55,234 nucleotides of DNA, taken from the IMG/VR virus record IMGVR_UViG_3300040801_001718, positions 1-55,234 of that record. The stretch is one strand, 5' to 3'. Under the pieces are notes generated by a model, which was given only the letters and a program-made list of their open reading frames with translations, searched no databases and had not been told where the DNA came from. The DNA is from a virus. Numbering within the stretch: position 1 is the stretch's first letter; each line of letters starts with the position of its first letter. The position numbers were made by a program, and so were the translations under genes. This document shows, piece by piece, positions 35,192-55,234 of this stretch.

Positions 35192-36280
35192 TTAAGCATT
35201 TGATGTAGCAGCTAAAGACCATTCTTCTACAGACAGATCTCCAAAATCAACAGCGTCGCCAGTGGAACTAATAGTAATATAATCAATAACATTAATTTTT
35301 GCATCATCAAGTGCGCCACCGCCAAATACGCCGCGATCATTCACATCATTTGAAGTAGATGCTAGTTGTGCACGAGCCGCTGTTAAATCTCCAAAATCCT
35401 GGGCATTGCCAGTAGAAGTTATGGTTATATATTCAATTATATTATACTCCGGACCAGTATCACCACCGCCGAACACACCTCTATTGTTTGTTCCGTTAGA
35501 AGTAGCAGCAAGCGCATATCTACCTACTGTTAAATCCCCGAAATCTGTGGCATTACCAGTAGTTGAAATGGTGACATAATCAATTACGTTAGAAATGGCA
35601 CCACCACCAAACACACCTCTATTGTTAGTACTATTTGAAGTACTAGCGATGGAATATCTAGTTCCGATCAAATCCCCAAAATCTGTGGCATTTCCGGTAG
35701 TAGAAATGGTGACATAATCAATTATGTTAGAAGCTGGTGCTACACTACCACCGCCAAATACACCTCTATTGTTAGTACTATTTGAAGTAGTCCCTAAACT
35801 ATGTCTTTTTATCGTCAAATCGCCAAAATCAGTAGAGTTTCCAGTAGTAGAAATAGTTATATATTCAATTGAATTAGTAATCGCACTTGTTTGACCACCA
35901 CCAAGTACACCTCTATCATTAGTACCATTCGAAGACGCACCAAGACCGAATCTTGCGTTTATTAAATCACCGAAATCTGTAGTGTTACTCGTAGTTGAAA
36001 TGGTTATATACGACATTACATTTAATTTAACACTACTCCATCCACCAATGAATACACCTCTATCTCTTCCAGAAAAATCTTCTTCTGGTGAAATACCTCC
36101 ATAACCCAAAACCTCGCCATCAGATTTTAAAGCCAGGACAGTTTTAGTTCCAGAAACCAGAGCTGTTACTTCATAATCTCCCACTGATTCCAATGAGTTA
36201 GATTCGATTGACCAGTCAGATTCTTTTAATATTAAAATTCTGGCGCTATCGTTTAAAGTCCCAGAAATTTTATAGGCCAT
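35192..36280 (-). CDS. Six-repeat propeller-like fibre protein (copy 1)
   Basis: A protein of 362 residues. Residues 1-75 form a shared N-terminal domain (YKISGTLNDSARILI, DWSIESN, VSGTKTV, GYGGISPEE). Six repeats of about 45-50 residues follow, each starting RGVFGGG (first copy RGVFIGG) and containing (I/V)(D/E)Y(I/V)TI(S/T)(S/T)TGNA.DFGDL and a (A/S)TSN.TN end. The repeat number and Gly-rich strand turns suggest a six-bladed beta-propeller. Three other genes here share the plan (41792, 43404, 54217). They are probably alternative receptor-binding or accessory fibre proteins. The gene overlaps the next by 11 bases at its start side. Confidence 0.85.
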   Translation of the reverse strand: MAYKISGTLNDSARILILKESDWSIESNSLESVGDYEVTALVSGTKTVLALKSDGEVLGYGGISPEEDFSGRDRGVFIGGWSSVKLNVMSYITISTTSNTTDFGDLINARFGLGASSNGTNDRGVLGGGQTSAITNSIEYITISTTGNSTDFGDLTIKRHSLGTTSNSTNNRGVFGGGSVAPASNIIDYVTISTTGNATDFGDLIGTRYSIASTSNSTNNRGVFGGGAISNVIDYVTISTTGNATDFGDLTVGRYALAATSNGTNNRGVFGGGDTGPEYNIIEYITITSTGNAQDFGDLTAARAQLASTSNDVNDRGVFGGGALDDAKINVIDYITISSTGDAVDFGDLSVEEWSLAATSNA

Positions 36281-37249: not shown

Positions 37250-38248
37250 TTATAATACAGCTGCCATCAAACAACCATTAGCAACTGCTGTCATTGGATC
37301 TTTCGCTCTTCGTACTTCTTTAATCTCAAAAGGAAACTTCTTTCCTAATAAACCCTCTTTAAATTTATTTACAAATCCCTTTGCCAATGTCAAACCACCA
37401 GACACAACGACTGGAATTTCTTCTCTAAAAGAAGGTAATTTGGATTTATCTAATTCATATAAGATATTTTCCAAAGCATAATTAATTAGTACATTATAGT
37501 AAACTGATATAGCTTCTTGTATTTTACCTTCAGGATTTGCCAAATTAATACCACCTTCCTCTTTTTCTACCTGAATTAACGAAGATCGTTCATCAATAGC
37601 TTTACCAACAGAACTATCAATCCAATCACCACCCTTAGTTAATGAAAACTGAATAATAGGGTCACCCTCATAACAAACAGCGGAATTAACCATACCAGCA
37701 CCAAATGAAAGGCACATTCCGGTAAGATTGTCATCCAGCAATTCGGAAAACGCTATTGCGAACCCCTCGTTTAGTGGGGTAGCGTCAAAGCCCATTTCTC
37801 TCATATATGATTTCATCATTTCTGTATGAAAAAATATATCGAATTCACCATCTACTGGCTCAGCCGGTATTGAAAACACTAGATCATCACTACCACTACC
37901 TCTACCTATTAAACTCTCAATAATAAGCTTAATCATTGGTAAAGAATCCTTCTCTTTTGGCGAAAGAACTCCTTTACTCATAGGACGACGTGCATCAGCA
38001 TTACGTTCATTTGCCATAAGCAATGCGTCCTCACCCACGACTATAAAATCACCAACTTCGTCTATGATAAAATTAGCTTTCCTACTCTCTAAAGCCATTC
38101 TAATACTTTTTTGATTAACTTTAGACTTTGGGGTAATTCTAAGAAAAGCATCTCGCTGTCGCTTATAAATAGGATTGCCTTCTGCACCCATAATTGCAGA
38201 AACCAACATATTAGTTCCTATATCCAAACCTACTCCTTTACTACCCAT
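37250..38248 (-). CDS. Actin-like ATPase (ParM/MreB superfamily)
   Basis: A protein of 332 residues. Phosphate-1 motif GVGLDIGTNML (residues 5-15), phosphate-2 type CLSFGAGMVNSAVCY near 180, and adenosine motif VVVSGGLTLAKGF near 285 are in the correct order and spacing for the actin/Hsp70 ATPase fold. The length fits ParM, Alp and MreB rather than DnaK. Phage actin-like proteins form filaments that move or segregate DNA or position assembly. Neighbours are a coiled-coil protein and ClpP upstream and a helical protein downstream, all in one run. No obvious RHH-type ParR gene is visible. AGGAGG precedes the ATG. Confidence 0.85.
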   Translation of the reverse strand: MGSKGVGLDIGTNMLVSAIMGAEGNPIYKRQRDAFLRITPKSKVNQKSIRMALESRKANFIIDEVGDFIVVGEDALLMANERNADARRPMSKGVLSPKEKDSLPMIKLIIESLIGRGSGSDDLVFSIPAEPVDGEFDIFFHTEMMKSYMREMGFDATPLNEGFAIAFSELLDDNLTGMCLSFGAGMVNSAVCYEGDPIIQFSLTKGGDWIDSSVGKAIDERSSLIQVEKEEGGINLANPEGKIQEAISVYYNVLINYALENILYELDKSKLPSFREEIPVVVSGGLTLAKGFVNKFKEGLLGKKFPFEIKEVRRAKDPMTAVANGCLMAAVL

Positions 38249-39087: not shown

Positions 39088-39672
39088 CTACTCCCTGCTT
39101 AATAAAACTTCATCAATTACGCCGTAATTTTTAGCATCTTCCGGACCTATATAATAATCCCTATCGATATCTTTCTTTAACTGTTTAATGGTTTTACCAG
39201 TCATATTAGCCCATTCACCTATCATTAAATCATTTAGTCTATCAGCTTCTTGAACAGACCTTTTAACATCTTCTATATGACCTTCAGCACCACTAGACAC
39301 TTGATGAAGCATAATACGAGCATTTTTCAATGCAAATCGTTTGCCTTTAGCACCAGCAGCTAAAATAAAAGCTGCGGCACTCGCAGCTTCACCAATACAA
39401 ACAGTTGACACATCGGGTTTGATATAATTCATTACATCATAAATAGCTAAACAAGCAGATACCACTCCACCAGGACTATTAATATAAATCGTAATATCTC
39501 GCTCTGGATCGTCTGCTTCTAAAAATAACAACTGAGCCACTACCGAATTAGCCAACTCTTTTGTAAAATCACTACCTATGAAAACAATTCGATCTTTCAA
39601 AAGTCTGGAATACAGATCATAAACTCGCTCTTTTTGACCTTCGCCCTCAATCACATACGGAATTCCTGCCAT
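39088..39672 (-). CDS. clpP: ClpP-like serine protease
   Basis: A protein of 194 residues. The catalytic triad is visible: Ser98 in GEAASAAAF, His123 in IMLHQVSSG and Asp172 in DIDRDYY. The oligomerisation strand ITIYINSPGG and the end YGVIDEVL are typical. The length matches bacterial ClpP without a long propeptide. The family forms tetradecamers that degrade proteins fed by ClpX/ClpA-type ATPases. No such ATPase is seen here, so host unfoldases would be needed, or it acts alone on small peptides. It is not in the normal position of a prohead protease, and a separate prohead protease exists. It ends in TAG. GGAGG precedes the ATG. Confidence 0.9.
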   Translation of the reverse strand: MAGIPYVIEGEGQKERVYDLYSRLLKDRIVFIGSDFTKELANSVVAQLLFLEADDPERDITIYINSPGGVVSACLAIYDVMNYIKPDVSTVCIGEAASAAAFILAAGAKGKRFALKNARIMLHQVSSGAEGHIEDVKRSVQEADRLNDLMIGEWANMTGKTIKQLKKDIDRDYYIGPEDAKNYGVIDEVLLSRE

Positions 39673-41791: not shown

Positions 41792-42898
41792 TTACGCATC
41801 AGAACATGCAGCTGGGCTCTGCTTGCCCATTGTTAAATCGCCAAAATCACTAGCATTTCCAGTATTAGAAATGGTTATATAATCTATCAAATTAGTAATA
41901 GCGTCAGAATAACCGCCTCCAAATATACCGCGCTCATTGGTTCCATTCGAGGTACTACTGCTAATATACCTAGCTACTGTTAAGTCGCCAAAATCAGTAG
42001 CATTTCCAGTCGACGAGATTGTTATGTATTCTATAACATTAACTCTATCGCTTATATAACCCCCACCAAACACTCCTCGATTATTAGTATGGTTTGAAGT
42101 AGCAGTTACATAACTTATATCATTACTAAGGTCTCCGAAATCTGAGGCATTGCCAGTAGAAGTAATGGTTATATAGTCGATAACATTCATAAATGATCCA
42201 TTATCACCACCACCCCATACACCTCGATTGTTAGTAGCATTCGAAGTAGCTGACGCGTATCTACGAACAGCTGTCAGATCACCAAAATCTTGACTATTTC
42301 CTGTATTAGAAATTGTAATATATTCTATTATATTTGTCCAATTATTTCCATCATATCCACCAGCTCCAAACACACCACGTTCATTAGTTCCATTAGATGT
42401 AGCAGTAAGCCATGTCCACGTTTTAGTAAGATCACCAAAATCTGATGTATCTCCAGTTGTAGAAATAGTAATATATTCTATCACATTAGAACGAGATCCA
42501 TCATCACCACCACCAAATACTCCACGATCATTCGTACCGTTCGAAGTAGCACTTAAGCTTGTTTTTGCTACACTTAAATCACCGAAATCTGTGGCATCCC
42601 CAGTGGTTGAAATGGTTATGTAATCAATTATGTTACTACGAGCTACAGTTTCGTCAGCCCCACCGCCAAAAACACCTCTATCTCCTCCAGAAGAATACTC
42701 TTCTGGTGAAATACCTCCATAACCCAAAACTTCCCCATCAGATTTTAAAGCTATGACTGTTTTAGTTCCAGAAACTAGCGATTCTATTTCATAATCTCCG
42801 ACCGATTCTTCGGTATTTGATTCGATTGACCAGTCAGATTCTTTTAATATTAAAATTCTGGCGCTATCGTTTAAAGTCCCAGAAATTTTGTATGACAT
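41792..42898 (-). CDS. Six-repeat propeller-like fibre protein (copy 2)
   Basis: A protein of 368 residues. The N-terminal 75 residues are nearly identical to those of the genes at 43404 and 35192 (SYKISGTLNDSARILI, NTEESVGDYEIESL). Six repeats follow, each opening RG(V/I)(F/W)G(G/A)G, with variable residues after the Gly-rich turn, then YITIS.TG...DFGDL. The variable stretch of each repeat (for example GYDGNNWTN, DNGSFMN) differs strongly between paralogues, as expected for exposed loops on a propeller face. It is probably a fibre or host-recognition protein. GGAGG precedes the ATG. Confidence 0.85.
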   Translation of the reverse strand: MSYKISGTLNDSARILILKESDWSIESNTEESVGDYEIESLVSGTKTVIALKSDGEVLGYGGISPEEYSSGGDRGVFGGGADETVARSNIIDYITISTTGDATDFGDLSVAKTSLSATSNGTNDRGVFGGGDDGSRSNVIEYITISTTGDTSDFGDLTKTWTWLTATSNGTNERGVFGAGGYDGNNWTNIIEYITISNTGNSQDFGDLTAVRRYASATSNATNNRGVWGGGDNGSFMNVIDYITITSTGNASDFGDLSNDISYVTATSNHTNNRGVFGGGYISDRVNVIEYITISSTGNATDFGDLTVARYISSSTSNGTNERGIFGGGYSDAITNLIDYITISNTGNASDFGDLTMGKQSPAACSDA

Positions 42899-43297: not shown

Positions 43298-43326
43298 GAT
43301 GACCTCTTTTCAAATATATAATTTTA

Positions 43327-43403: not shown

Positions 43404-44504
43404 TTAAGCATCTGAACAAGCAGCTAATTCCGAGCATGCAGTAGTTATATCGCCAAAATCTGTAGCATTTCCAATAGATGAAATTGTAATGTAGTCAATA
43501 ACATTTAACCAGCTAATCTGCATTCCACCACCAAATAAGCCGCGTTCATTTGTACCGTTGGAACAAGCTGATAGATCTTTTCTAACTCCATTTAAATCTC
43601 CAAAATCAGTAGCATTTCCAGTAGAGTTTATAGTTATATAGTCCATAACATTGATATTAGATGGGGTACTACCACCACCAAACACTCCGCGCTCATTAGT
43701 CCCGTTTGAAGTAGCACTTACACCATAAACCTGGTTCCTTAAATCACCAAAATCATTGGCATTACTTTTGGATGAAATAGTTATATAATTAATATAATTG
43801 TAAAAATTTGACCCATTAGTCCCACCACCAAACACTCCACGATCATTGGTGCTATTAGAAGTGGCGGCTAAAAAACCCCTAGCATTTGCTGCCAAATCTC
43901 CAAAATCAACGGCGTTTCCAGTAGTTGGGATGGTGATGTAGTCCATGACATTTTTATAATTACTATCACGGCCACCTCCAAACACGCCTCTTTCATTTGT
44001 ACCATTAGAACAAGCAGCTAAACCATATCTACTTACCGTCAAATCACCAAAATCTGTAGCATCGCCAATAGTTGAAATAGTGATGTAATCAATTCTATTG
44101 GTAAGATTAACATCACCGCCACCAAATACTCCACGATCATTAGTACCATTCGAAGTGGCTGATAAACTACGCCTAGCTACTGTTAAATCTCCAAAATTTG
44201 TAGCATTACCAGTAGTTGAAATTGTCACGTATCCAATGACATTTGTAACTGCTGAGGCATCGACACCACCACCAAACACGCCTCTATCTCCTACAGGAAG
44301 ATATTCTTCAGGAGACACGTTTCCGTATCCAACAACTTCGCCGCCAGTGTTAATAGCAACTATGGTTTTAGTGCCGCTAACTAGGCTTTCAATTTCATAA
44401 TCTCCGACCGATTCTTCGGTATTTGATTCGATCGACCAGTCAGATTCTTTTAATATTAAAATTCTGGCGCTATCGTTTAAAGTCCCAGAAATTTTGTATG
44501 ACAT
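43404..44504 (-). CDS. Six-repeat propeller-like fibre protein (copy 3)
   Basis: A protein of 366 residues. Same plan as the other copies: an N-terminal domain (YKISGTLNDSARILI; here with IVAINTGGEVVGYGN replacing the KSDGEVLGYGG version), then six RG(V/L)FGGG repeats ending in ACSDA. It lies between tRNA-Gly(TCC) and tRNA-Gln(CTG). The first 130 bases of the gene are almost identical in DNA to those of the 41792 gene, including silent positions, so the pair arose by recent duplication or conversion. Likely an alternative receptor-binding or accessory fibre. Confidence 0.85.
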   Translation of the reverse strand: MSYKISGTLNDSARILILKESDWSIESNTEESVGDYEIESLVSGTKTIVAINTGGEVVGYGNVSPEEYLPVGDRGVFGGGVDASAVTNVIGYVTISTTGNATNFGDLTVARRSLSATSNGTNDRGVFGGGDVNLTNRIDYITISTIGDATDFGDLTVSRYGLAACSNGTNERGVFGGGRDSNYKNVMDYITIPTTGNAVDFGDLAANARGFLAATSNSTNDRGVFGGGTNGSNFYNYINYITISSKSNANDFGDLRNQVYGVSATSNGTNERGVFGGGSTPSNINVMDYITINSTGNATDFGDLNGVRKDLSACSNGTNERGLFGGGMQISWLNVIDYITISSIGNATDFGDITTACSELAACSDA

Positions 44505-47058: not shown

Positions 47059-47640
47059 CTAATTTTTAATAAATTCTACTCTGTTTAACCATCCTCTGGC
47101 GTATTTTTCTTGAATAGGACTTTCGGTCATATAAGTGATATAGTGCATCCCTTGTAAAATATTTAGAACTTTGTACAAATAACTAACATTATCAGTAGCT
47201 AAATACATAGACAAAGCCCTATATGTATTTTGTCCAAATTGACCATCTTCGACAATATCTTCATATATTTGTTGATTTCGGTTTAGAATGTTTAAACCTC
47301 TTTGTAGAAATTTGATTGCTCGACTAGCTCCCATATTTACGCTGGTATCAAATAATTCGTTTGCTAAATCCTGTTCTGATAATTCATCGCCCCAAAATAA
47401 ATTCCAAAAAGTTGATTTATAAAATAATTTAACCATGTCTTCTAATTCAGAATTACTTTCTAAATTGTTTGGAAAATCAGAACTACTTTTTGCTTCATCT
47501 ATAATGGGCCATCCTTCCCAATCAGGATGATATCGTCTAGAAATACCTTTATAAGTTTCTTTACCCGAATCATCGGGATCATTTGAATAACCACCTTCAT
47601 GACCTAACGTAATATTATACGCCGTATTAAAATTCGCCAT
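47059..47640 (-). CDS. Endolysin, GH108-type N-acetylmuramidase
   Basis: I place the start at ATG 47640 (MANFNTAYNITLGHEGGYS), with GGAGA and good spacing; the open frame extends upstream without a site. The 193-residue protein has the hallmark HEGGYSNDPDDSG with catalytic Glu15, then TYKGISRRYHPDW, and GASRAIKFLQRGLNIL with the C-terminal putative peptidoglycan-binding fold (VEDGQFGQNT.RAL). This is the glycoside hydrolase 108 plus PG-binding-3 pattern. It cleaves the glycan chain at lysis. No signal peptide is seen, so export would need a holin. It ends in TAG. The permuted NlpC/P60-like gene lies directly upstream. Confidence 0.9.
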   Translation of the reverse strand: MANFNTAYNITLGHEGGYSNDPDDSGKETYKGISRRYHPDWEGWPIIDEAKSSSDFPNNLESNSELEDMVKLFYKSTFWNLFWGDELSEQDLANELFDTSVNMGASRAIKFLQRGLNILNRNQQIYEDIVEDGQFGQNTYRALSMYLATDNVSYLYKVLNILQGMHYITYMTESPIQEKYARGWLNRVEFIKN

Positions 47641-47650
47641 ACTAACTCTC

Positions 47651-48220
47651 CTATGATAATCGTTCTGCCAAGATAGTCCATCGATCTGGATATTTCTCCC
47701 AATCATCTTCTATATCGTCTGGATCACAGGACATCCATGGCACATTATTAAATTCATAACCACATGCCGTATTATAAATCCAAGCTACAAAACTTGAACA
47801 CACTTGATTATATATATTCTCGTCTTTATTACTAAACCAGTTTGTTTTAAAGATATGATCTAAAAATTGTAAAAGTATTCGATGTACCCCATAAAATTTT
47901 CCTAATAATTGTGGTGCAGTTCGAAGCATAACATCTTGTTGGTGTTGGCTTAAATCATTTTTTCTTGCTATTCGCCAATACTTTTTGTTTTTGAATAATT
48001 TATCTAATTTGATACTCCTTAACCGCCAATGGGCTTCCCAAGCTTCTATATTATCTTTTACAATTAAACAATGACCCCAATGTACAGGATCATCTTGAAA
48101 ATGTCTCATAAACCATACTATTAAATTGTTATCACAGGATAATATAATATCTCCAGTTTTCAAAGTTGGTAAAACGTTTTTCTCTAAATGCTGACGTGAC
48201 AGTTTTAGATTGATATCCAT
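47651..48220 (-). CDS. Permuted NlpC/P60 (YiiX-like) papain-fold protein
   Basis: A protein of 189 residues. The order is GDIILSCDN, then VHWGHCLIV with candidate catalytic His50, then a C-terminal QVCSSFVAW with candidate nucleophile Cys141. This is the circularly permuted papain-like layout (His before Cys) of YiiX/YebB and related enzymes. Members act on peptidoglycan peptides or lipids or amides. Beside the endolysin it may be a second cell-wall hydrolase. It starts 18 bases after the suppressor-type tRNA and ends in TAG, four bases before the next ribosome site. No signal peptide. Confidence 0.75.
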   Translation of the reverse strand: MDINLKLSRQHLEKNVLPTLKTGDIILSCDNNLIVWFMRHFQDDPVHWGHCLIVKDNIEAWEAHWRLRSIKLDKLFKNKKYWRIARKNDLSQHQQDVMLRTAPQLLGKFYGVHRILLQFLDHIFKTNWFSNKDENIYNQVCSSFVAWIYNTACGYEFNNVPWMSCDPDDIEDDWEKYPDRWTILAERLS

Positions 48221-48238
48221 TATGTTTTACCTCTGTGA

Positions 48239-48309
48239 TCGTGTGGGGGGAGTTGAACCCCCCTAAAACGGTTTTAGAATCCGCCGCCTAGCCGCTCGGC
48301 CACACACGA
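48239..48309 (-). tRNA. Amber-suppressor-type tRNA, anticodon CTA
   Basis: A 71-base cloverleaf: acceptor TCGTGTG/CACACGA, fully paired; D arm GCC-(9)-GGC with GG in the loop; anticodon stem GCGGA/ACCGT (one G-U, one A-A mismatch next to the loop); loop TTCTAAA, so the anticodon is CTA (reads UAG); T arm GGGGG-TTCAACT-CCCCC. The variable loop is 5 bases, so it is not of Ser/Leu/Tyr type. U1-A72 occurs also in the tRNA-Gln here and is a Gln-type feature. No CCA is encoded. A 9-base loop with TCT would be the alternative, but it would need a poorer stem. Confidence 0.8.
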
Positions 48310-51352: not shown

Positions 51353-51763
51353 TTATATCTCCAATTTTTTAAATAATTGTCTTGCTTTTTCAAGATCCAT
51401 TATTAATAATTTTTCAAAATATGGTTGAGGGTCTATATGTTCAACTTCTATTTCATTATATTCAGCAAATTCAATTTCTCCTTTAAGTCCAACTGAAGTT
51501 TCCCATCCAGGCAATGTTACTACAAGTAGCCTTTTACATTGCTTTAAAAATGATAAATTCATTCTTTCCCAAAACTCAAATGTTTTTGGCATTGTATACT
51601 TACAAGCAATGTGATGCCATGAGCTGATAGGCGAATAAATTGCTCTGCCTTGATTAGTAAGCTCGGTAGCAATTATATCAACTATTTTTGCTCTAAAATC
51701 CTGTAAGTAACCGTTGTTGTCTGAATAAGGTGTTCCCAAATATTCTAAATCTAATAGTTCCAT
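51353..51763 (-). CDS. DUF1937-like (deoxyribosyltransferase-fold) protein
   Basis: A protein of 136 residues. The start YLGTPYSDNNGYLQDFRAK, then GRAIYSPISSWHHIA, a WERMNLSFLKQCKRLLVVTL helix-strand and GWETSVGLKGEIEFA follow the DUF1937 family pattern, a relative of nucleoside 2-deoxyribosyltransferases. The GE(I)-type Glu near residue 95 would be the nucleophile. The function of the family is not well established. It forms a pair with the larger family member at 50321. The gene overlaps the upstream gene by one base (TAATG). Confidence 0.7.
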   Translation of the reverse strand: MELLDLEYLGTPYSDNNGYLQDFRAKIVDIIATELTNQGRAIYSPISSWHHIACKYTMPKTFEFWERMNLSFLKQCKRLLVVTLPGWETSVGLKGEIEFAEYNEIEVEHIDPQPYFEKLLIMDLEKARQLFKKLEI

Positions 51764-52164
51764 TATATATCTCCATTCTCAATTATTTTTTGTTCTTCAT
51801 ACGGAATAAGTAATTTTATTCGTATCCATTCTGCTGATTCTCTATATTCATTTTTAAATATTATAGGTAATGATTTTTCAACAGCTTCATAAATCATTCC
51901 CATAAAATTTTTATAGTTATTATATGATGGTTTTATATGATATTTTGCGTATTTAAACAAAATGTAATTTATGTTACCATCTGGAGTGGCTGCGGCATGT
52001 ATATCATTAACTAATTCCATAATAGGATGGTTTGGCTGAAACGTTAATGATCCTGACAGACATATTAAAAAATCTCTGAATTTTTCCATATTTAAAGACA
52101 ACTCTACTAATTTATTAATGTATCTATTCAATTCCGGTCTTTTTTCTGGTAATACGTAAGGCAT
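51763..52164 (-). CDS. Small conserved-type protein (MPY...PYE..KI.ENGD family)
   Basis: A protein of 133 residues. The first residues MPYVLPEKRPELNRYINKL, the middle NINYILFKYAKYHIK and the end PYEEQKIIENGDI match a small family common in phages and bacteria that starts MPY(I/V) and closes PYE..KI.ENGD; I think this is DUF6899 but cannot verify it. No function is known to me. It is helical. Coupled with the neighbours at both ends by one-base overlaps. Confidence 0.65.
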   Translation of the reverse strand: MPYVLPEKRPELNRYINKLVELSLNMEKFRDFLICLSGSLTFQPNHPIMELVNDIHAAATPDGNINYILFKYAKYHIKPSYNNYKNFMGMIYEAVEKSLPIIFKNEYRESAEWIRIKLLIPYEEQKIIENGDI

Positions 52165-52580
52165 TATTCATCTACCTCCATTTCATCTAATTTTTTCATA
52201 AACATGTCTGCATGTTCTTTATATTCTTCCAAAACTTTTATCTTATCTACATGGACAGATTCAACATATTTTATTTCTTCCCAATTAAAAGTATAAAATT
52301 TATATGGAATCCCTACTTTTTCAACATCTTTTTCAAATTCTACATTTACAATCTCAAGAATTAAAAAAGGAAATTCTTTTTTGAAAGCTAAACACCCATC
52401 TTTGGTATTTACTTCTTTGTTTATAAGATCTATATTAGACTCAGCTTCTATCGAAGTTCCGAAACGTCCAATTATTTCTGCTTTATACTCAGTTTCTCCA
52501 AACCCATGACCAATAATATATGTATATTTCATTGGTCTATCATTATGTTCCATTGGTTCTACTATTCTCATTGTGTTCAT
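52164..52580 (-). CDS. Hypothetical protein
   Basis: Start at ATG 52580 (MNTMRIVEPMEHNDRPMK), with GGAG 8 bases upstream; a TTG one codon before is unlikely. It has 138 residues. The main domain begins near KYTYIIGHGFGETEYKAEI and shows beta strands with FPFLILEIVNVEF and YKFYTFNWEEI, then an acidic helix at the end (MFMKKLDEMEVDE). The family is not recognised. It overlaps the next upstream gene by 38 bases. Confidence 0.6.
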   Translation of the reverse strand: MNTMRIVEPMEHNDRPMKYTYIIGHGFGETEYKAEIIGRFGTSIEAESNIDLINKEVNTKDGCLAFKKEFPFLILEIVNVEFEKDVEKVGIPYKFYTFNWEEIKYVESVHVDKIKVLEEYKEHADMFMKKLDEMEVDE

Positions 52581-52842
52581 CAATATTCTCCGGTATTTCT
52601 TTAGTTTTGTTTATTTTCCAAAATCTAACCATCGGAGGTTTATGACCTTGTGGTAAAGCCACTATATAATCAATTCCGTAATCTTTTCTTAAACTTATCA
52701 TTTTAGAAACTAGATCATACTCTTTAACTGGCTTTCCATTAAATAAAACTTTCACTAATTCGGGCATAGGTATTTCTATAACTACCTTTTTATCTTCCTC
52801 TATGCTTTTAATTAAAGTTGTTATAAACTTATGTCCGTCCAT
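52543..52842 (-). CDS. Hypothetical protein
   Basis: A protein of 99 residues, MDGHKFITTLIKSIEEDKK at the start, with GGAGG 8 bases before the ATG. It has an alpha/beta pattern (KVVIEIPMPELVKVLFNG, then DYIVALPQGHKPPMVRFW) and a disordered acidic C-terminus. First gene after the fourth promoter-like element, so it heads the accessory operon 52.8-49.3 kb. Not recognised. Confidence 0.65.
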   Translation of the reverse strand: MDGHKFITTLIKSIEEDKKVVIEIPMPELVKVLFNGKPVKEYDLVSKMISLRKDYGIDYIVALPQGHKPPMVRFWKINKTKEIPENIDEHNENSRTNGT

Positions 52843-52901: not shown

Positions 52902-52928
52902 AAAAAGCGGACATATAGCCCGCTTTTT
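52902..52928 (-). terminator. Rho-independent terminator after the metacaspase unit
   Basis: Stem AAAAAGCGG with its exact complement and a 9-base loop. On the minus strand the stem is followed by a run of T (CCGCTTTTTTATTTTTT). The structure is symmetric enough to work in both directions. It lies 32 bases after the stop of the 46-residue gene and separates it from the next operon. Confidence 0.8.
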
Positions 52929-52959
52929 AACGTAAATTTAATATATATCTGCTATTATT

Positions 52960-53100
52960 TTATGTATATAGTAATTCCCAAAAACTTTCATTTATTATTA
53001 TAGAGTATTCTGGGTCTAAATCATCTAAATTACTAAATTCTGATAGTAATTTTTCCAAAATTTTCTGTTTTTCGGGATCAGCTATTTCAGAATCATCCAT
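52960..53100 (-). CDS. 46-residue very acidic protein downstream of the metacaspase
   Basis: ATG at 53100 with GGAGG 9 bases upstream; the ribosome site lies in the last codons of the metacaspase gene, and the start is 6 bases after its stop. The frame begins MDDSEIADPEKQKILEKLL and ends NESFWELLYT before TAA. It has 13 Asp/Glu and only 3 Lys and no Arg. It is probably helical in the first half. A small acidic partner directly after a protease gene could be an inhibitor, a chaperone or a substrate. It is closed by a strong terminator, so the two genes form a unit. I do not recognise a family. Confidence 0.7.
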   Translation of the reverse strand: MDDSEIADPEKQKILEKLLSEFSNLDDLDPEYSIIINESFWELLYT

Positions 53101-53106
53101 AATTTA

Positions 53107-54186
53107 TTAGCCTCCAAAAACTTTCCTATTGACTAGAGTGCTATCACCACTTAATTGCGGAATTTGAGTAAATTCAGACTTTAATGTTTGAACAGCCTGG
53201 TTATGTGCTTCTTTAAAAGTTATATTTGGATTAGATTTAATAGCTTTAGTGATTGCCCATGTAAAAGCACCTTGATATTTATTACCTATATTAGCATCAG
53301 CGGAAGTTTGATCATCTTTACATCCAGAAATTAATATATGATTTTGAGAAGCAGATTTATCTTGTTTAGCCCCTATAATTTTTACTGGCAATTTTCTATC
53401 TACTGATCTAGATTTTATATCGAAAGGAGGTTCTAAATAACGAGGAGTATGGCGTTCTTTTGTTTTATTTCCAGGATTATTTAATCCACGAGTCATCGTA
53501 CCACTATGACAAGAATCACAGAACATTGTCAAATAAACACCTTTTGGCACTTTTTTAAATAGTTCAGCTAAATCATCATCAGTTAAAGGGTTGTTCCAAT
53601 CCAAGTCTGTTGGACAAAGTATTTCATCCAATGAATCATTTAGTTCATCCCCATTTCGATCTCTAATCTGACTTCCATGACCTGAATAATGAAAAAACAA
53701 TTCATCACCCGCAACTGGATCTTTCACTAACCAGTTTAATCTTTCTAAAATACCTTCTTTGGTCGCTCTAAAATCAGTAAGAACTCGTATATTATCGGCT
53801 TCGAATCCAAACTGATTGACAAGTAAATTTCTCATATTTTCAACATCATTAACGCATCCTTGTAAATCTGCATTTAGATCTGGGGCATATTTATTAATTC
53901 CAACCAATACAGCTTTCTTTATTGGTTTACGATTTGTTGGTGCAGGTACTACTACATCATCATCGTCATCTTTTTTAAATTTATCCAAAAATTTCTTTAT
54001 GCATTTACACATTTCGTCTTCTCCAAACTTATGAATTTTATCCCTTGTTTCTTTAGCTTCATTATCCCATAATTTTAAAAGTTCTGATCTTGGTATATTG
54101 TATTTTTTAAACTCTTTCCAAGCTAATTTAGTCCATTTATATCTATAATAGTGATTTAAATATGTACCTTTTTCCCACTTAGCCAT
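53107..54186 (-). CDS. Metacaspase (peptidase C14-type)
   Basis: A protein of 359 residues. Residues 1-75 are a basic helical pre-domain with two nearby Cys (MCKCIKK), followed by an Asp run and Pro-rich linker (DDDDDVVVPAPTNRKP). The caspase-type domain starts KKAVLVGINKY and has the dyad His170 in FHYSGHGSQ and Cys226 in CDSCHSG. In between is the DRNGDELNDSLDEILCP segment typical of metacaspases, in line with a basic P1 pocket (cleavage after Arg/Lys). The C-terminal part has ILISGCKDDQTSAD and GAFTWAI as in the family. All key residues are present. It lies between a fibre gene and a small acidic gene. AGGAG precedes the ATG. Confidence 0.92.
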   Translation of the reverse strand: MAKWEKGTYLNHYYRYKWTKLAWKEFKKYNIPRSELLKLWDNEAKETRDKIHKFGEDEMCKCIKKFLDKFKKDDDDDVVVPAPTNRKPIKKAVLVGINKYAPDLNADLQGCVNDVENMRNLLVNQFGFEADNIRVLTDFRATKEGILERLNWLVKDPVAGDELFFHYSGHGSQIRDRNGDELNDSLDEILCPTDLDWNNPLTDDDLAELFKKVPKGVYLTMFCDSCHSGTMTRGLNNPGNKTKERHTPRYLEPPFDIKSRSVDRKLPVKIIGAKQDKSASQNHILISGCKDDQTSADANIGNKYQGAFTWAITKAIKSNPNITFKEAHNQAVQTLKSEFTQIPQLSGDSTLVNRKVFGG

Positions 54187-54216: not shown

Positions 54217-55234
54217 TTAAGCATCTGAAGTAGCTGCTATATCATATTTATTTGCTCTAAGATCACCAAAATCAGTAGCATTGCCAGTAGATGAAATGGT
54301 TATATAATCGATAATATTACAAGCCGCTGTAGTATAACCACCGCCGAAAACGCCACGATTATCCGTACCGTTAGATGTAGCAGCCAAAAAACGTCTGGCA
54401 GCTGTTAAATCTCCGAAATCAGTAGCATTACCAGTCGAAGAGATAGTAACATAAGTAATAACATTAGTAGTAGTACCCCTATCTCCACCGCCAAACACAC
54501 CACGATTACTAGTACCATTAGAAGATGCCGCTAAAACATATGTGGCCGATAATAAATCACCAAAATCAGTAGTATTACCGGTTGAAGAAATGGTTATATA
54601 TTCAATCGTATTAAATTTTGATGCGGAACTTGAAACTCCACCACCAAAAATACCTCTATTATTTGTTGCATTTGATGTTGCTGATGTACCTCTGATTTCC
54701 TCCACCAAATCACCAAAATCAGAAGCATTACCGGTAGATGAAATTGTGATATATTCTATAATGTTAGAACATAATGAAATGTCAGTAGTACCTCCCCCAA
54801 ACACACCTCTATTACTTGTTCCATTAGATGAAGCTGCTAATTCTTGTCTTGATGATGCAAGATCACCAAAATCACTTGCATTACCTGTAGTAGATACAGT
54901 CACATAATCAATAATATTATATCTATTAGCGCTCATTGATCCGCCACCAAACACTCCACGATCATTAGTGCCATTAGAAGTAGCGGCTAATTTTTCTCTA
55001 TATAATGAGAGATTACCAAAATCACCGGCATTACCAGTTGATGAAATAGCTATGTATTCTATTTCCCAATTATCACCACCAAATAAACCTCTGTCCCCAG
55101 CAGTATAAGATGGTACTGTTTCAAAATACCAAATGTCACCAGTTGTTGTGCCGGTTTCATTCTTTGAATCAATTCTCCAGTAATAAGTACCGTCTTTTTC
55201 TAATGTACCGGGATCATAATTTGTTCCTTCTTGA
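54217..55234 (-). CDS. Six-repeat propeller-like fibre protein (copy 4), partial at the right edge
   Basis: The frame is open from the right edge (first whole codon ends at 55233) to the stop at 54217: 338 residues plus missing N-terminus. The visible start is an Fn3-like end (DGTYYWRIDSKNETGTTTG, then IWYFETVP), unlike the N-terminal domain of the other three copies. Six repeats follow (first one shorter, RGLFGGDNWEIEYIAIS), all with the RG(V/I)FGGG and DFG(D/N)L pattern, ending AATSDA. A GTG near 54954 is internal and not the start. It is 30 bases upstream of the metacaspase gene. Likely a large fibre whose last domain is the propeller. Confidence 0.85.
   Translation of the reverse strand, partial: QEGTNYDPGTLEKDGTYYWRIDSKNETGTTTGDIWYFETVPSYTAGDRGLFGGDNWEIEYIAISSTGNAGDFGNLSLYREKLAATSNGTNDRGVFGGGSMSANRYNIIDYVTVSTTGNASDFGDLASSRQELAASSNGTSNRGVFGGGTTDISLCSNIIEYITISSTGNASDFGDLVEEIRGTSATSNATNNRGIFGGGVSSSASKFNTIEYITISSTGNTTDFGDLLSATYVLAASSNGTSNRGVFGGGDRGTTTNVITYVTISSTGNATDFGDLTAARRFLAATSNGTDNRGVFGGGYTTAACNIIDYITISSTGNATDFGDLRANKYDIAATSDA

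Follow-up and report, generated by a model that had tools for sequence, protein, structure and literature searches.

Metacaspases are caspase-like proteases that cut after Arg or Lys, and they have been discussed as ancient death proteases of hosts. Among described systems, the type I metacaspases of yeast (Mca1/Yca1, 4f6o), Candida glabrata (Mca1, 7qp0) and T. brucei (MCA2, 4afr) have the same p20 + p10 fold as the phage enzyme considered here, and have in common with it a His/Cys dyad, an acidic S1 pocket, an SGxxxxQTSAD motif in p10 and the absence of a long linker between the domains. The phage enzyme differs from this set in being encoded by a phage and in having a basic helical extension and no Pro-rich or zinc-finger prodomain, and from the yeast and Candida enzymes and Arabidopsis MCA4 (AtMCA4) in carrying Arg rather than Asp seven positions after the catalytic Cys (Cys+7). 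Its bacterial counterparts are stand-alone type I-like metacaspases of Desulfobacterota and other bacteria (L034-L113), the closest of which are 48–53% identical over the whole caspase domain. Unlike the phage enzyme, most of these start directly at the caspase domain; they lack the small acidic gene (p46) described below, and a transmembrane (TM) helix occurs in none of the 80.

Metacaspases are also encoded by giant viruses (medusavirus, Heterosigma akashiwo virus, Fadolivirus, and Clandestinovirus), for which a role in host death has been proposed (PMC6450098), and a Fadolivirus protein is the best BFVD match of our enzyme (E 8e-23). However, giant viruses infect eukaryotes, whereas the present locus belongs to a tailed phage lineage, with its nearest cellular relatives among bacteria. 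Another comparison is offered by the orthocaspase MaOC1 of Microcystis, which cleaves an antitoxin encoded next to it (PMC7935541) and is likewise a caspase-family protease followed by a small gene, its possible target. However, the biology of MaOC1 is its own, and the gene is followed by a ParE/ParD module of two genes (PMC7935541), whereas only one orphan gene is present here; p46 has no toxin or antitoxin similarity, and no adjacent toxin and antitoxin genes of the MaOC1 type were found. In the open-access literature we found no paper on phage-encoded metacaspases beyond a remark on phage-related metacaspase operons of Clostridium botulinum (PMC3501461), a passing mention that gave an earlier hint of metacaspases in phage-like surroundings.

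The DNA analysed here, hereafter called the window, spans the 55,234 bases of one IMG/VR record. It carries a tailed-phage terminase, endolysin genes and weak capsid matches, in agreement with the first-pass annotation, which had read it as phage DNA. Relatives of its terminase form a large uncultured group whose contigs are mostly fragments, and a metacaspase was found in 3 of 50 of them. The features of the locus, in the order of transcription, are as follows.

54217..55234 (-), fibre-like gene with RGVFGGG repeats, cut off where the contig ends and separated by 30 nt from the metacaspase, which follows on the same strand
53107..54186 (-), metacaspase coding sequence, 359 aa
54016..54186 (-), basic, helical N-terminal extension of 57 residues, lineage-specific
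53965..54015 (-), MCKCIKKFLDKFKKDDD segment from Met58, a possible second start
53146..53919 (-), caspase domain (p20 + p10), residues 90-347
53677..53679 (-), catalytic His170 (HYSGHG)
53509..53511 (-), catalytic Cys226 (DSCHSG)
53111..53115 (-), GGAGG ribosome site of p46
52960..53100 (-), p46, acidic protein of 46 aa
52902..52928 (-), rho-independent terminator ending the metacaspase-p46 transcript, 11-bp stem plus T tract
52543..52842 (-), conserved '...RFW' gene, marker of the syntenic slot
51763..52164 (-), DUF6899 gene, second slot marker

Judging from its sequence, the locus almost certainly encodes a catalytically complete type I metacaspase, an accessory gene of the tailed phage. The reading frame, with AGGAG upstream of its ATG at a 6-nt spacer, contains Peptidase_C14 as its one strong domain (Pfam, 127.6 bits against a cut-off of 21.4). 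Its top sequence matches in the PDB are yeast Mca1, Candida Mca1 and AtMCA4, to which it aligns over both p20 and p10. An AlphaFold2 (AF2) model with 32 sequences as input has a core pLDDT >90, and the best solved-structure matches of that model are again metacaspases, plant ones included (Foldseek E 8e-20). The complete caspase-type dyad and the basic pre-domain recorded in the first-pass annotation are both upheld. His170 and Cys226 are invariant in an alignment of 40 sequences, and residues 1-72 carry a net charge of +8.7. The same alignment shows C111, D114, S168, and D224 of the S1 pocket to be invariant; we take these residues to be the counterparts of the basic-P1 pocket of T. brucei MCA2. 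An orthocaspase, consisting of p20 only, was considered and is excluded, since the p10 region is present and conserved, with its motif SGCKxxQTSAD lying directly behind p20 without a long linker. By every structural feature tested, in sequence and in model, the window enzyme is a type I metacaspase.

Its activation may nevertheless differ from that of the enzymes at the top of the PDB matches. Where yeast, Candida and AtMCA4 have Asp at Cys+7, the window metacaspase has Arg233. Arg or Lys is likewise found there in 56 of the 75 viral sequences aligned and in 67 of the 69 bacterial ones; D203 of the DD motif is retained (40-sequence alignment). The presence of Arg233 instead of Asp suggests that Ca2+ control may not follow the pattern of those three enzymes.

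The N-terminal extension has no homologue in 308 loci, i.e., it is confined to this phage, and helices are predicted at residues 6-27 and 33-51 (AF2, pLDDT about 70). From Met58, which has GGAG 8 nt upstream, the protein reads MCKCIKKFLDKFKK; relatives start with similar sequences (MCKLCDWLF..., MCKILSNLF..., and MGCKCLEKIQ...), and therefore the 57-residue extension looks like a later addition. Met58 as the sole start was rejected, however: the first 57 codons are coding (score 0.474), so the long form stands and Met58 is a possible second start.

The ATG of p46 lies 6 nt past the TAA of the metacaspase, with GGAGG 10 nt before it. The first-pass annotation had stressed this spacing and a strong ribosome site. 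The GGAGG is indeed present, but it falls within the codons for the Gly-Gly pair at the metacaspase C-terminus (...RKVFGG). This C-terminus resembles those of the two nearest relatives (RKVFGRK and RKVFGGK), so that the site is partly a by-product of the protein sequence. A spurious frame with a by-product ribosome site was nonetheless rejected by codon statistics, trained on the long genes of the window: p46 scores 0.525, where genuine coding pieces of 46 codons average 0.564 and not one of 89 spurious ORFs reaches its value. Hence p46 is a real gene. Its acidic and Arg-free character was also described correctly at first reading, as it is the most acidic small protein in the window (pI 4.05, charge -10.5); a lack of Arg would be expected by chance with p = 0.13. 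A single-sequence AF2 model has two helices (pLDDT 72). No match to p46 was found in Pfam, NCBIfam or PADLOC, and a match to PHROG 31298 (E 0.064) was taken as chance.

The metacaspase and p46 had been regarded as a closed two-gene unit, with a terminator after p46 and a new promoter behind it. The terminator is there, an 11-bp stem at 52928-52902, and p46, a genuine but lineage-specific gene, is the last one of the transcription unit that includes the metacaspase. The promoter was not found by a two-hexamer scan; the next gene past the terminator, a conserved phage gene, has no family assignment. Nor does the unit appear closed, since a gap of 30 nt separates the metacaspase from the end of the fibre gene before it, which is on the same strand, and no terminator was detected in between.

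The proposed pairing of the metacaspase with p46 found no support in related phages. Two relatives, G001 (locus L005) and G002 (locus L006), have some 25-35 genes in common with the window, including a 356-aa capsid-like gene that is ~90% identical in G002, and carry their metacaspase in the same slot, upstream of counterparts of the RFW gene and of the DUF6899 gene (the former placed by alignment, the latter by family match and alignment). In place of p46, this slot holds a gene of 105 or 116 aa and one of 81 or 85 aa. No match to p46 was obtained in INPHARED at E 10, no significant one in 308 related loci (tblastn, best E 0.29), no exact DNA pattern match in IMG/VR, and none in 20 whole metacaspase-bearing records, where the short query makes the negative weak. 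A short acidic gene conserved behind viral metacaspases, which the first-pass annotation had suggested looking for, was not found either: among 59 genes lying <=120 nt behind them, the charge per residue goes no lower than -0.089, versus -0.228 for p46. By these comparisons p46 is very probably not a conserved partner of the metacaspase, and given this lack of conservation it should not be named as one. A better candidate for a conserved partner would be a 90-aa gene that is conserved directly upstream of the metacaspase in two other viral loci (L011:5650-5922 and L013:5683-5955).

Metacaspases had been called rare in phages, and this holds for catalogued ones: INPHARED (50,697 records) gave one clear tblastn match with the window metacaspase and three with a second query. 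In uncultured viruses they do recur: alignment-based pattern scans of IMG/VR returned 29, then 80 loci, and about 75 of the viral metacaspases are distinct. With the full metacaspase as a single query, viral and genome collections gave no matches, because the chosen peptides fell in variable parts of the protein, a problem that the alignments overcame. Of 76 viral sequences, 74 contain SGHG and 73 contain DxCH/F. All viral pairs for which dN/dS could be measured have values of 0.06-0.25. In a tree built from 103 sequences, viral and bacterial, the window metacaspase groups with the viral copies L005, L006, and L007 (99/92), and viral and bacterial labels switch nine times. The occurrence in 3 of 50 terminase relatives, the intermixed tree and the low dN/dS together argue for an accessory but selected phage gene. 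Phage metacaspases are, as far as these sequences indicate, a scattered family under purifying selection that is exchanged with bacteria; the family is real and worth study. With ~75 viral copies under purifying selection, among them membrane-anchored ones and one interrupted by an intein at the catalytic histidine, the use of caspase-like proteolysis by phages in host death or lysis is now testable.

Several members of the family merit description in their own right. The intein-bearing copy (L032:4516-6594, on the contig of L270, IMGVR_UViG_3300029258_004408; TIGR01445 and TIGR01443) is split directly after the catalytic His-Gly (SGHG/CFSGD...VHN/SQVRD), so its protease activity would depend on protein splicing. 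Eight loci (L022, L278, L283, L285, L286, L288, L290, and L291) encode a metacaspase with a C-terminal TM helix adjoining Hsp20 and/or ClpS genes, a block that is conserved in a different phage group from that of the window. Two others (L016:5971-6861 and L026:5956-6861) have the metacaspase between genes for a gp32-like single-strand-binding protein and a RecA/UvsX-like protein, and conservation there extends to at least five neighbouring genes on both sides. In L254, L258, and L266 the caspase domain is preceded by a strongly acidic segment (net -10.6, -23.9, and -16.0, respectively), which itself follows a hydrophobic N-terminal motif, and a HAD-type phosphatase gene and two TM genes are conserved upstream of the metacaspase in these three loci.

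As to function, we tentatively propose, as a possible rather than a probable role, that the window metacaspase is an accessory, host-directed Arg/Lys protease that acts near the envelope and aids killing or lysis. It would be made from the same-strand gene block that includes the fibre gene, might process itself in a flexible K/R-rich loop (about residues 228-278), and would cleave host proteins near the inner membrane, after Arg or Lys, which could help to dismantle the cell or prepare lysis. TM helices are N-terminal in L005 and L006 and C-terminal in 14 other viral copies, compared with 0 of the 80 close bacterial relatives; the window metacaspase itself has none. The metacaspase of L256, from the clade of the window, is surrounded by an amidase gene, a lipoprotein gene and a 61-aa TM gene. 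A holin-like TM gene is common to the surroundings of L007, L260, and L263, a lipoprotein gene to those of L256, L260, L261, and L263, and lysis-type neighbours occur in L256, L260, L263, L279, and L293. Immediate neighbours of viral metacaspase genes encode, among other domains, Amidase_2, Amidase_3, M15_4 and phage lysozyme, and among the matches listed there are four lysis-type neighbours versus 0 of 108 for the fourth to sixth neighbours (roughly p = 0.06), so the excess is small. The TM anchors, the neighbours of the relatives with MCK-type N-termini and the endolysin-type neighbours all point to the cell envelope. However, TM helices occur in ~15% of prokaryotic metacaspases generally (PMC3501461), and anchoring is therefore not phage-specific; the hydrophobicity of the N-terminal extensions is ordinary compared with other genes of the same loci (p = 0.31). 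A phage-specific membrane-anchor signature was rejected on these two grounds. Both of them, together with the differing contexts of other clades (RecA/gp32 in L016 and L026; Hsp20/ClpS in L022 and L278-L291), weaken the envelope reading. No endolysin, holin or spanin gene adjoins the metacaspase in the window, where the endolysin-type genes (GH108 and C92, at 47059-48220) lie 5 kb away. Taken together, a selected accessory phage metacaspase with an orphan p46 and a putative role in envelope proteolysis is the best overall explanation of the locus, and we give this combination about an even chance.

Alternatively, the metacaspase and p46 may form a regulated pair, in which p46 serves as inhibitor, activator or substrate, perhaps docking on the basic N-terminal extension. 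That p46 is coding, co-terminal and very acidic fits such a pair, as does the basic extension (+8.7), which like p46 was found in this phage alone; acidic segments in cis precede the caspase domain in L258, L266, and L254 (see above), and MaOC1, which cleaves the antitoxin encoded alongside it (PMC7935541), provides a precedent. However, no homologue or analogue of p46 was found behind the other viral metacaspases searched, the slot in G001 and G002 holds other genes, metacaspases of the family occur elsewhere without such a gene, and small acidic proteins are not rare in phages, all of which make the pair unlikely. Still less likely, in our judgement, is its generalization, that phage metacaspases are a class of their own under the control of acidic pro-segments, provided in cis in L254, L258, and L266 and in trans by p46 here, where it would act on a co-acquired basic N-terminal domain and restrain the protease until late infection. 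A further use of the protease might be counter-defence, through destruction of a host defence protein (e.g., a membrane-bound effector) or interference with caspase-like defence proteases. The metacaspase matches the PADLOC 'caspase' model (68 bits), its distribution is accessory and patchy (3 of 50 terminase relatives, on partial contigs), and relatives have membrane tethers; but the domain in common is all that the PADLOC match reflects, none of the genes alongside the metacaspase was identified as a defence or anti-defence gene, and such a distribution would fit any accessory gene. We consider this role improbable, to about the same degree as the pair.

The two remaining alternatives start from the fibre gene and the adsorption region. 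Maturation of the virion would have the metacaspase trim the fibre encoded upstream of it, whose RGVFGGG repeats have a conserved Arg before Gly; a related fibre gene lies directly upstream in both the window and the related genome G010 (gaps of 19-30 nt), and a LamG-type fibre gene overlaps the metacaspase in L012. However, in G001 and G002, the closest relatives, the genes upstream are different ones, the fibre neighbour being common only to G010; no protease lies alongside the remaining fibre copies of this phage, and most viral metacaspases do not adjoin fibres, which leaves fibre trimming very unlikely. Superinfection exclusion, or some other way in which a membrane-associated protease might convert the host cell, would accord with the membrane anchors in relatives, with the position near adsorption genes and with the accessory distribution. 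Against it, a limited look revealed no evidence of lysogeny, and there is no similarity to exclusion proteins; we rate exclusion as remote as fibre trimming. Envelope-near proteolysis thus remains our preferred, if tentative, reading.

Some other genes of this phage deserve mention. The fibre-like gene is one of four paralogues with RGVFGGG repeats (35192-36280, 41792-42898, 43404-44504, and 54217-55234, all on the (-) strand), and the three complete ones have near-identical first ~60 residues, as if they formed a receptor-binding repertoire. A tRNA with a CUA anticodon (amber-suppressor type; Pyl according to ARAGORN) is located at 48237-48309 (-), and three further tRNAs at 43325, 44536, and 45503. 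Recoding of TAG, which the CUA tRNA had brought to mind, was rejected, as TAG ends 12 called genes, an endolysin gene among them, without coding continuation. A complete ClpP gene is present at 39088-39672 (-) (PF00574, 234 bits), with 51-71% identity in G001, G002, and G010. Finally, the protein encoded at 37250-38248 (-) of the window is a homologue of actin and falls into the Volactin family (PF25216, 231.8 bits), which is known from haloarchaea; it is 76% identical in G001 and G002.
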